Positions 33,971-36,926 of a DNA stretch of 64,000 nt are shown here, in pieces. Within the stretch, counting starts at the first letter, position 1. The number at the start of each line of letters is the position of its first letter. The DNA comes from Campylobacter sputorum subsp. sputorum (lineage in GTDB: Bacteria; Campylobacterota; Campylobacteria; Campylobacterales; Campylobacteraceae): contig NZ_CP043427.1 in assembly GCF_008245005.1 (NCBI RefSeq), positions 1,426,001-1,490,000 of the forward strand. Direction: 5' to 3'. The notes beneath the pieces were generated by a model. That model had not been told where the DNA came from. It made no database searches and worked only from the letters and a program-made list of their open reading frames with translations. Made by a program: the position numbers and the translations under genes.

Positions 33971-36076
33971 ATGAAAAAAATTTTAAAAAGAGATGGAAAA
34001 GAAGAGCTATTTTTATCATACAAGATAGAAGATGCTATAAAAAAAGCATTTGAAAGCGAAAATGAAGAGTATGATAAAAAAGTATTTTACGGCGTTATCG
34101 ATGAAATAGCATCAAAAGAGATAACAGCGGTTGAAGATATACAAGATTTGATAGAAAAAAAGCTATTTGAACGCCAACATTTCAATGTTTTAAAAAGTTT
34201 TATGCTATATCGCCATACTCATAAAATGCAAAGAGAGCAAATTTTAGGATTAAATGAAGACACAACATACATAAACTCAACTCAAACCATAAACGAATAT
34301 ATAGGAAAACATGATTGGAGAATTTTAGCAAATTCAAACGCAAGCTACTCAAACGCAGGGCTTATAAACAACACCGCTGGAAAAGTCATAGCAAACTACT
34401 GGCTTGATAGTGTTTATAGCAAAGAAGAGGGATTAGCTCATAGAAATGGGGATTATCATATCCACGATTTAGACTGCCTTACTGGATATTGTGCAGGATG
34501 GAGCTTAAGAGCATTGTTAAACGAAGGTTTTAATGGCGTTAGAGGAAGAGTTGAAAGCAAATCACCTCATCATTTTAGAGAAGCACTTTATCAAATGGCA
34601 AATTTTCTTGGAATTTTACAAAGCGAATGGGCAGGAGCACAGGCATTTTCAAGTTTTGATACATATCTTGCACCTTATGTTTTTAGAGATAATTTAACAG
34701 ATAGAGAGATAAAAAAAGCTATTACTAGTTTTGTTTTCAATCTAAATGTGCCAGCAAGATGGGGGCAAAGTCCATTTACAAATGTTACGATAGATTTAAC
34801 TTGTCCAGATGACTTAAAAGATCAAATTCCAACAAGCCAAAACGAACATCTTTTTAAAGGCTTAGATGATGAAATTCTTATAAAAAAAGCAAAAGAACGA
34901 GGCAGAGATAAATTAATCGATATGACTTATGGCGATTTTCAAAGCGAAATGGATCGCATAAACATAGCATTTTATGAGGTTTTAACAAAAGGAGATAAAT
35001 GCTCTCAACCTTTTACTTTTCCTATACCAACTGTAAATTTAACACAAGATTTTGACTGGGATAGCCCAGTGGCTAAAGTGTTGTTTGAAAATACTGCTAA
35101 AATGGGCTCGAGTTACTTTCAAAATTTTATCGGAAGCCAATATATCATAGATGAAAATGGAAACAAAATAGAAAATGAAAAAGCCTATAAACCAGGTGCA
35201 GTCCGCTCAATGTGTTGCAGACTTCAACTCGATTTAAGAGAACTGCTAAAAAGAGGTGGGGGACTTTTTGGTTCAGCTGAAATGACTGGATCAATTGGCG
35301 TTGTAACGATAAATTTAGCCCGTCTTGGCTATCTTTATAAAAATGATAAAAAGGCACTTTATGAAAATTTAGATAAGCTTTTAGAACTTGCAAAAAGCAC
35401 ACTTGAGAAAAAGCGTAAATTTATAAAAGAAATGTATGATAGAGGGCTTTATCCATACACAGCAAGATATCTTAAAAATTTCAACAACCATTTTAGCACC
35501 ATAGGTATAAATGGCGCAAATGAAATGATAAGAAATTTTAGCAATGATAAAGAAAACATTGCAACTAAATTTGGAGTTAAATTTGCTACTGAAATTATAG
35601 AACATTTAAGAGACAAAATCCGCTCTTTTCAAGAAAGCACGGGAAATCTTTATAATCTCGAAGCAACTCCTGCTGAGGGGACAACTTATCGCTTTGCAAA
35701 AGAAGATAAAAAAAGATATGATGATATATTGCAAGCTGGAAGTGGCGATAATATTTATTATACAAACTCGACACAACTTCCTGCGTATTTTGGAGACGAT
35801 CCGTTTGAAGCACTTGATTTGCAAGATGAACTTCAATCAAGCTACACAGGCGGAACCGTTTTTCACTTATATATGAAAGAAAAGTTAAGTTCGGCTGAGG
35901 CTTGTAAAATGCTTGTAAAAAATATAGTAACAAATTACAAACTTCCTTATATTACAATAACCCCGATATTTAGCGTTTGTCATAAGCACGGATATATTTC
36001 TGGAGAGCATGAATACTGCCCGTATTGTGATGAAGAGTTACTAAATGAATATAAAAAAAATCAAAAAGGAGCATAA
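33971..36076 (+). CDS. nrdD: Anaerobic (class III) ribonucleoside-triphosphate reductase, catalytic chain lacking the glycyl-radical tail
   Basis: It reduces ribonucleotides to deoxyribonucleotides without oxygen. Residues 1-90 are an ATP-cone (KRDGKEELFLSYKIEDAIKK). The body has the class III core (GDYHIHDLDCLTGYCAGWSL, NLNVPARWGQSPFTN). Near the end the metal-site segment FSVCHKHGY … YCPYC carries Cys670, Cys683 and Cys686. The chain then stops after ELLNEYKKNQKGA at residue 701. The usual C-terminal glycyl-radical box is missing here and is encoded by the next gene. nrdG follows as activase. Confidence 0.93.
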   Translation: MKKILKRDGKEELFLSYKIEDAIKKAFESENEEYDKKVFYGVIDEIASKEITAVEDIQDLIEKKLFERQHFNVLKSFMLYRHTHKMQREQILGLNEDTTYINSTQTINEYIGKHDWRILANSNASYSNAGLINNTAGKVIANYWLDSVYSKEEGLAHRNGDYHIHDLDCLTGYCAGWSLRALLNEGFNGVRGRVESKSPHHFREALYQMANFLGILQSEWAGAQAFSSFDTYLAPYVFRDNLTDREIKKAITSFVFNLNVPARWGQSPFTNVTIDLTCPDDLKDQIPTSQNEHLFKGLDDEILIKKAKERGRDKLIDMTYGDFQSEMDRINIAFYEVLTKGDKCSQPFTFPIPTVNLTQDFDWDSPVAKVLFENTAKMGSSYFQNFIGSQYIIDENGNKIENEKAYKPGAVRSMCCRLQLDLRELLKRGGGLFGSAEMTGSIGVVTINLARLGYLYKNDKKALYENLDKLLELAKSTLEKKRKFIKEMYDRGLYPYTARYLKNFNNHFSTIGINGANEMIRNFSNDKENIATKFGVKFATEIIEHLRDKIRSFQESTGNLYNLEATPAEGTTYRFAKEDKKRYDDILQAGSGDNIYYTNSTQLPAYFGDDPFEALDLQDELQSSYTGGTVFHLYMKEKLSSAEACKMLVKNIVTNYKLPYITITPIFSVCHKHGYISGEHEYCPYCDEELLNEYKKNQKGA

Positions 36077-36077
36077 A

Positions 36078-36248
36078 ATGGAATTTCCAAAAGAGTTAGA
36101 ATCAAAAAGAACAAAATGTGTAGTTTATACAAGAGTTATGGGATATTTAAGACCGGTTGAGAGCTTTAATTTAGGTAAAAAAGGAGAGCATAAAGAGCGT
36201 GTTCAATTCGTAGAAAAATGCGATAAAAAGGAACAAAAAACAGCATAA
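36078..36248 (+). CDS. Separate glycyl-radical peptide of NrdD (56 aa)
   Basis: The ATG at 36078 is one base after the nrdD stop, with AAAAAGGAG six bases upstream. The 56-residue product contains TKCVVYTRVMGYLRPVESFN followed by LGKKGEHKER. This is the C-terminal radical box of class III ribonucleotide reductases; Gly22 is the predicted radical glycine. So NrdD is encoded as two chains in one operon, nrdD–peptide–nrdG. The peptide would have to dock on NrdD, rather as GrcA docks on pyruvate formate-lyase. It is in the +1 frame relative to nrdD. A frameshift fusion is possible, but the strong ribosome site favours independent translation. Confidence 0.85.
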   Translation: MEFPKELESKRTKCVVYTRVMGYLRPVESFNLGKKGEHKERVQFVEKCDKKEQKTA

Positions 36249-36251
36249 ATT

Positions 36252-36926
36252 ATGAATCAAATTTATGAAATTACTAAATTTACCACAACAGACTATCAAG
36301 ACGAACTTGCTTGTATAGTTTGGTTTGGTAGATGCAATATGCGTTGTATCTACTGCTACAACATAGATGCGGTTTTAAATCAAGGCAAAATAACAAATGA
36401 TGAGTTTTTAAATTTTTTAAAATCAAGAGTTGGAAAATTAAGCGGAGTTGTGTTTAGTGGCGGTGAATGCACGCTTTGTAGAGATTTTTTAACACTTTGT
36501 AGAAATGTTAAAAACCTAGGTTATAAGCTTAAAGTTGATACAAACGGCACAAATTTAGACATCATAAAACAAGCCTTGGATGAAAATCTTATAGATTACA
36601 TTGCGCTTGATTTTAAAGCACACATTGATATATTTAAAGAAATTACAAAATCAAATTTATATTATAAATTTGAAAAAACACTGCAATATCTCATAAAAAT
36701 TGACTTTAAATTTGAAGTTAGAACGACAATTCATACTGATTTTATAAACGAAAATGATATTTCTCAAATGGCACAATATCTTGAAAATTTAGGATATAAA
36801 AATAACTATTATTTACAAAACTTTTTACAAACAAATCATAATTTTACCAAACTTCCACCACAAAAAAGAGTTATAGATAAAAACAAAATACTCACAAAAT
36901 TAAACATAGTATTGCGAAATTTTTAA
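36252..36926 (+). CDS. nrdG: Anaerobic ribonucleotide reductase-activating protein (radical SAM)
   Basis: It installs the glycyl radical on NrdD. The radical SAM cluster is CNMRCIYC (Cys28, Cys32, Cys35), and VVFSGGECTL is the GGE motif. At 224 residues it is of the longer, Cys/Trp-preceded type (VWFGRCNMRC), like PflA/NrdG activases of many anaerobes. It starts 3 bases after the glycyl-radical peptide. Confidence 0.92.
   Translation: MNQIYEITKFTTTDYQDELACIVWFGRCNMRCIYCYNIDAVLNQGKITNDEFLNFLKSRVGKLSGVVFSGGECTLCRDFLTLCRNVKNLGYKLKVDTNGTNLDIIKQALDENLIDYIALDFKAHIDIFKEITKSNLYYKFEKTLQYLIKIDFKFEVRTTIHTDFINENDISQMAQYLENLGYKNNYYLQNFLQTNHNFTKLPPQKRVIDKNKILTKLNIVLRNF

Follow-up and report, generated by a model that had tools for sequence, protein, structure and literature searches.

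Within a 64,000-nucleotide stretch of the Campylobacter sputorum subsp. sputorum genome (contig NZ_CP043427.1, positions 1,426,001 to 1,490,000; hereafter the window), we find a locus that very probably encodes a class III (anaerobic) ribonucleotide reductase (RNR) in which the glycyl-radical loop forms a 56-residue subunit of its own, translated independently of NrdD, obligate for the enzyme and acting in trans. The locus consists of nrdD, the peptide gene and nrdG. The nrdD open reading frame (ORF) runs from an ATG at 33971 to a TAA at 36074-36076, and its C terminus, ...CPYCDEELLNEYKKNQKGA, lacks the radical-glycine box. Reading of the ORFs bears out the original prediction that nrdD stops at residue 701 without this box, that a 56-codon ORF with an ATG start and a Shine-Dalgarno (SD) site begins one base on, and that nrdG, starting at 36252, follows three bases beyond the peptide stop.

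The large ORF matches positions 2-532 of the 562 in the Pfam family NRDD (PF13597; E 1.9e-161, 538.9 bits) and the peptide matches positions 531-562 (E 1e-7, 31.4 bits; cut-off 26.2). Together the two ORFs tile the family and barely overlap. NRDD is the sole Pfam match of the peptide at E ≤ 1, and no glycyl-radical family of pyruvate formate-lyase (PFL) is among its matches. The large ORF further matches the ATP-cone (PF03477), NF006126 (PRK08270; 1092.4 bits against a cut-off of 548) and TIGR02487 (415 against 326), and NrdG matches TIGR02495 (NrdG2; E 9e-51, 171.9 bits against 131.15). In alignments with solved NrdDs, the Cys/His segment CHKHGYISGEHEYCPYC falls on their Cys-rich end; the SMCCR cysteines were picked out visually as a counterpart of the SCCR motif described in PMC4493059. 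The radical site named for Thermotoga maritima NrdD (tmNrdD) is Gly621 (PMC4493059). In the profile alignment the peptide loop is placed on tmNrdD 616-646 with Gly22 on Gly621, a segment that is weak when taken alone. The locus thus shows the family profile, a glycyl-radical loop within the system and an adjoining NrdG, as expected of a class III RNR, and the predicted model has the class III fold including the loop region; the departure is that loop and barrel lie on separate ORFs. The one-contig 1.75-Mb genome contains only two NRDD matches, nrdD and the peptide, so there is no second complete nrdD, the presence of which the original prediction had named as telling against it, and this is the sole class III RNR.

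The structure was modeled as one tethered chain of NrdD and peptide, and the alignment likewise treated the halves as one. The model has a predicted template modeling score (pTM) of 0.75 and block values of the predicted local distance difference test (pLDDT) of 75-88 over peptide residues 9-48. Superposition on solved NrdDs reaches model residue 747-751, in the glycyl-loop region, in 6 of the 21 NrdD rows. In the mechanism that we envisage, NrdD would retain the catalytic barrel, finger-loop cysteines and Zn-finger, and the peptide would fold into the barrel, in the place that one-chain NrdDs fill with their C-terminal loop. We infer that NrdG, encoded next door, would place the radical on Gly22 of the trans-assembled peptide, from which the NrdD cysteine would then take it.

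Table 1. Features of the split RNR locus (positions in the window)
Feature	Position	Strand	Description
nrdD, catalytic subunit, 701 aa	33971..36076	+	ATP-cone, barrel, SMCCR finger-loop cysteines, Zn-finger; no glycyl-radical loop
Cys/His segment CHKHGYISGEHEYCPYC	35978..36028	+	Zn-finger by homology; final conserved element of large subunit
Shine-Dalgarno-like AAAAAGGAG of peptide gene	36063..36071	+	within nrdD 3' end
Glycyl-radical peptide gene, 56 codons	36078..36248	+	predicted start ATG 36078, 1 base after nrdD stop
Predicted radical glycine codon, Gly22 of RVMGY	36141..36143	+	falls on T. maritima NrdD Gly621
nrdG (NrdG2), radical-SAM activase, 224 aa	36252..36926	+	Radical_SAM, TIGR02495 over cut-off

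Evidence for independent translation of the peptide

We read 113 sequences, comprising 112 loci and the window; with L001 and L002 dropped as repeats of the window, 90 loci are split. The peptide lies within 1.5 kb of nrdD in 84 of these, which form the set for counts of frame and spacing. Relative to nrdD, the peptide frame is distributed 28/27/29 in these class loci and 24/24/23 in 71 loci beyond the class. Spacing ranges from -31 to +1160 nucleotides (nt), with 36 peptides overlapping nrdD, 34 at 0-30 nt, 10 at 31-200 nt and 4 at more than 200 nt. An AGGAG-like site precedes 82 of the 84 peptide starts, the starts having been picked partly by that site.

Gene order varies as well. In one locus only (L111) the peptide comes after nrdG, and in three others (L075, L097, L107) 328-852 nt of other sequence separate nrdD from the peptide, with nrdG after the peptide. 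Six of the 90 split loci have no peptide nearby: L061 is at a contig end, and in L079, L085, L100, L101 and L112 the peptide is encoded elsewhere, directly upstream of nrdG. Seven genomes (G193, G213, G169, G078, G368, G200, G262) carry the peptide at least 58 kb from nrdD and adjoining nrdG, and five genomes of the g4 group (L160, L179-L182) have an extra gene between nrdD and the peptide-nrdG pair. The remote, nrdG-linked copies and the g4 gene order indicate that the peptide accompanies nrdG more faithfully than nrdD, while the random frame and the distance of at least 58 kb exclude fusion by readthrough or frameshift as a general mechanism.

Of the 70 loci with all three SD duplexes placed, 62 have a stronger one for the peptide than for either nrdD or nrdG, although the search windows were unequal; in a control with the nearest ATG and no site-based choice, it is the strongest in 19 of 22. 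Both comparisons use an assumed anti-SD tail, and related loci are not independent. What the sequences themselves show is two ORFs, a ribosome site belonging to the peptide, a peptide gene that pairs with split-type NrdD and changes its location, more than one copy in some genomes, and re-fusions.

In the GYLRPV motif (window 36138-36149), the window and a genus-mate have Leu, against His in 82 of 84 class loci; Leu or Phe occupies this position in some other members of the peptide family. The gene intervening in the g4 genomes is of the NAMPT/NAPRTase type, by Pfam on L160 only and by position and length in the others.

Distribution within the class and beyond

Of 397 genomes of the window's class, 207 have NRDD matches and 185 match the peptide profile A1, the 185 all lying within the 207. 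The peptide itself may score as NRDD, and large-subunit matches were told apart by their best E-values; by this measure 184 of the 185 also have a large NRDD match, and G354 matches through its peptide alone. In three of the 185 (G064, G140, G245) the motif lies within a one-chain NrdD. The 22 NRDD genomes lacking the peptide profile comprise 18 with a distant one-chain NrdD (15 of one genus plus G001, G254 and G260, by Pfam range), G225 with another one-chain type, G123 with a fragment bearing an inner stop, and G331 and G355, whose matches are at contig edges. The distant one-chain NrdDs (L003-L019, L041) are 23-30% identical to that of the window where blastp aligned them (L005 and L019 gave no segment) and are probably of separate descent. 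Two or three peptide matches occur in 17 of the 185 genomes, and in five of these (G090, G103, G153, G125, G364) the extra matches are partial, broken or a tandem remnant. In G329 nrdD is in two ORFs. A side observation is that G224 carries the whole nrdD-peptide-nrdG operon twice (L153, L154), with identical peptides and one nrdD in two ORFs.

Conservation of the arrangement across the class excludes a sequencing indel, which had been named at the outset as an outcome that would undo the prediction. The prediction's suggestion that the split may be a trait of some Campylobacter species does not hold, as the arrangement runs through the class and occurs in Pseudomonadota and other lineages.

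Among plasmids, tblastn gave 28 records, eight of which were opened; the best match is Sulfuricurvum kujiense (Campylobacterota). The split also occurs in Cupriavidus necator H16 (pHG1), C. metallidurans, Bradyrhizobium ottawaense, Azospira, Cereibacter and Sulfuricurvum, the last belonging to the window's class; the Actinomyces oris match is of the one-chain form. Five plasmid records name a 58-69-residue peptide nrdD. In C. metallidurans, NrdDG is listed as Rmet_5137 and Rmet_5139 (PMC2864759), and the number between them is presumably the peptide. C. necator H16 needs nrdDG for complete denitrification (PMC2864759, citing Siedow et al. 1999); as its system is split by sequence, this is the best indirect evidence that a split system works. 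Beside these, pALVIN01 of Allochromatium vinosum (L268) carries an orphan peptide next to a CHAP-domain gene, with no nrdD annotated within 4 kb.

A scan of genome contigs with profile A2 gave at least 582 pattern matches, of which the best 80 loci, mostly Pseudomonadota by title, were read. Split systems account for 76 of the 80 (71 scored by script with an adjacent nrdD and five called fused but split on reading); three have no nrdD nearby and one is at a contig edge. Each of the three orphans is a second copy, its genome also having a full split set, and all 10 of 10 genomes behind scan loci have one NrdD of the split form and none of the one-chain form. NRDD occurs in 31 of the 120 genomes of the order around Thauera linaloolentis: 28 are split (one with an in-frame stop) and three have the one-chain form only. 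A peptide was found for each of the 28, in G660 on another contig, and three of them carry a distant one-chain NrdD besides. PRK08270 matches occur in 137 of 198 genomes of the phylum around L318, 47 of them over the cut-off, and both forms are present.

Phage-borne and extra chromosomal copies

Scanning IMG/VR with profile A1 gave 82 confirmed stretches, of which 80 loci were kept; near-duplicates among the contigs mean that these are not 80 independent phages. The motif pattern is matched by 74 of the 80, namely 73 short ORFs and one one-chain NrdD (L243); the other six were read by eye, and one of them, L261, looks degraded. For 71 of the 73 short-ORF loci, blastp at 1e-6 under the standard code detected neither nrdD nor nrdG in a flank of at most 6 kb and often less, whereas L190 has both and L244 has nrdD. 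The glycine and its box are kept in the phage peptides, an observation that is partly biased because one search pattern contains the box. The one-chain NrdD on L243 (868-3759) has an intein-like insert just past its YSGG motif.

In the neighborhoods tested against PHROG (14 contigs, 18 proteins), terminase, DNA polymerase, tail, tape-measure, endolysin, and minor head protein or kinase matches occur on eight contigs, and the other six of the 14 gave no named neighbor. The best match of all four peptides tried is phrog_4132 (E 2e-13 to 2e-4), a family catalogued as of unknown function. The INPHARED phages gave no tblastn match at 1e-3. In five IMG/VR contigs (L254, L256-L259) a TGA stands at the invariant glycine of GKK, which fits genetic code 25; reading TGA as sense lengthens the open frames about two- to five-fold, and does likewise on L234 and L238, which have no TGA in the peptide.

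Extra copies in genomes of the class adjoin DUF5675 (L143, L144, L147) or a GH108-type endolysin (L148 by Pfam, L370-L373 by similarity to that of L148), and L152 follows a Mu-type transposase and AAA pair. L143 also has a holin-like neighbor below its Pfam cut-off, and L150, L155 and L157-L159 gave no phage-type neighbor match of these kinds. Because of the lysis-type and Mu-type neighbors, the extra copies are presumably prophage-borne. When six of them were ranked against hosts, the G210 copy was seen to share the rare GYLRP (Leu) with its own host, and the sequences give no more than a hint that prophage peptides match their own host better than other hosts. By analogy, the phage-borne copies are likely to be substitutes resembling T4 Y06I, a phage glycyl-radical protein that restores PFL (PMC8683613).

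Evolution and selection

A tree of 61 proteins, rooted at the midpoint only, unites the split proteins of the window's class and Pseudomonadota in one clade (100/100). One-chain proteins (L020/L021, L024 and that of Actinomyces) are nested within this split clade and are most simply read, from their placement, as re-fusions. The other clade is mostly one-chain, with two nested split groups (L420-L422 with L426-L427, and L423-L425) that have their own peptides of a different type, with QWN/NWN after the glycine box; their glycine motif lies about 65-240 nt beyond the nrdD stop (L426 and L427 read by eye). At least five changes of form are required by well-supported branches, which is compatible both with a one-chain ancestor that underwent fission repeatedly and with an early split followed by several fusions. 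The approximately unbiased (AU) test rejects a single clade of the three one-chain class proteins (p 1.4e-5). Likewise, a single clade of all five fused relatives tested was tried and rejected (AU, p 2e-9). Long branches belong to L243, L244, L269 and L020, and the joining of L243 with L244 may be false. The switches between one and two chains occur at roughly one site, between the Zn-finger and the loop, as expected of interacting parts.

Uncorrected ratios of nonsynonymous to synonymous differences (pN/pS) are 0.065 for 15 family copies, 0.22 for 80 genome loci, 0.18 for nine extra copies and 0.18 for 15 viral copies, with pS at 0.64-0.84 and so near saturation. Judged by these ratios, the peptide is under purifying selection. 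A separate radical subunit, as originally proposed, is thus upheld by random frame, remote and nrdG-linked copies, duplicates, re-fusions and selection.

Alternative explanations

Several observations weigh against a split enzyme with a trans-acting peptide. The peptide segment by itself reaches only 8.8 bits (i-Evalue 3.1) against tmNrdD, and the superposition ends at 664-666, ahead of the peptide, in 6 of the 21 NrdD rows; association in trans is not provable from a tethered model and an alignment that joins the halves. G354, an assembly of about 100 contigs, yielded peptide and nrdG with nrdD not found, and some extra matches are broken (G090, G103, G153, G125). One-chain NrdDs are common, that of Escherichia coli included, which means that life with oxygen does not require a split enzyme.

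It is also conceivable that the two ORFs are joined in translation by programmed frameshifting or stop readthrough. An A-rich stretch lies ahead of the window's nrdD stop, and the peptide is in the nrdD frame behind at least one stop in 28 of the 84 class loci; yet the frames are evenly used in both sets, nrdG or other sequence intervenes in L111, in L075, L097 and L107 and in the five g4 genomes, and the peptide occurs in remote copies with its own start and SD site, which leaves joined translation a very slim prospect. Slimmer still is an artefact of annotation or sequencing, or a decaying nrdD. Damaged loci exist, among them the G123 fragment, the nrdD of G329 and partial second peptides, but the comparative data refute this account: most NRDD genomes in the class share the same arrangement and it recurs outside the class, the peptide is under purifying selection, and the split system of C. 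necator H16 is needed for complete denitrification (PMC2864759).

Two further accounts leave the peptide separate and question its role. Phage-borne peptides could be inhibitors or decoys of host NrdD or NrdG rather than working radical subunits, as might suit peptides without nrdD or nrdG in their flank (71 of 80 IMG/VR loci) and extra chromosomal copies beside lysis-type genes, where late takeover genes may also sit. We consider this unlikely in light of the retained glycine and box (with the search bias noted above), the pN/pS of 0.18 and the restoration of PFL by T4 Y06I (PMC8683613). A more serious contender, which we would still place behind its opposite, is that the split has no exchange role and is a neutral gene fission kept by co-expression. 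The peptide lies no more than 30 nt behind nrdD in 70 of 84 loci, and the tree allows change in both directions; relocation, multiple copies, phage carriage and a strong SD site, on the other hand, are more easily explained if a free peptide is useful.

Implications

Many bacteria and many of their viruses encode the radical part, of about 50-70 residues, separately, and the fragile radical may thus be carried by an exchangeable subunit. It is more speculative that the peptide is made in excess, for which its stronger SD site is indirect support, that it is exchanged after oxygen cleavage, and that phages supply or renew host NrdD with their copies. In its widest form the idea is evenly poised between right and wrong: a free, diffusible loop in a large part of bacterial diversity would serve as a radical cartridge, present in excess over NrdD and replaced when cleaved by oxygen, and phages, including those with TGA as glycine, would carry just the cartridge, as a general auxiliary gene that maintains or restarts the host's anaerobic synthesis of deoxyribonucleoside triphosphates.

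With the two-chain form, biochemists could load, label and swap the radical as a separate part and control its timing, and could ask how the loop reaches NrdG. Annotation is affected too, with peptides named nrdD in plasmid records and the phage family listed as of unknown function.

Comparison with known systems

One-chain NrdDs (T4, T. maritima, P. copri, S. thermophilus) share with the split form the NRDD family, ATP-cone, barrel, Zn-finger, radical-glycine loop and NrdG, and differ in having the loop on the same chain, where the split form puts it on its own polypeptide. The distance from the last Zn-finger Cys to the conserved Cys across the break is 21-46 residues in split NrdDs (median 30.5, 84 loci), as against 3-11 residues, by eye, in the fused relatives L021, L024, L243 and L269. 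Published accounts treat the radical glycine as part of the NrdD chain, with a table entry 'Glycine in enzyme' (PMC4390871), and place the glycyl radical domain at the NrdD C terminus (PMC9669993). In the accessible text of the open-licence literature, including PMC2795772, PMC3019208, PMC4493059, PMC9669993, PMC3653736, PMC4390871, PMC11528403, PMC8683613, PMC12338860, PMC2864759 and PMC3322345, and with subscription papers mostly outside this scope, we found no account of an NrdD with a detached glycyl-radical subunit.

Other RNRs also come in pieces, such as NrdJa/NrdJb, the split class II RNR of P. aeruginosa (PMC4520616), and phage RNR genes including Aeh1 nrdA and split phage nrdD (PMC9669993, PMC3653736). 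These belong to another class or have other break points, and, as far as the accessible text goes, none parts off the radical loop alone. GrcA/YfiD and T4 Y06I are likewise small stand-alone radical-glycine proteins, one of them phage-encoded (PMC8683613), and the same paper counts only two validated spare-part proteins, both for PFL, and allows that others may exist; split peptides make the spare-part idea testable for RNR. GrcA/YfiD and Y06I mend a complete PFL that oxygen has cleaved, whereas the bacterial NrdD peptide is the only glycyl loop of its system: it lacks homology to the PFL C terminus, and the window's NrdD has no loop of its own to back up. The analogy with GrcA/YfiD that was drawn originally thus fails for the bacterial peptide, very probably an obligate subunit and no spare part, and comes closer for the phage-borne orphan copies.

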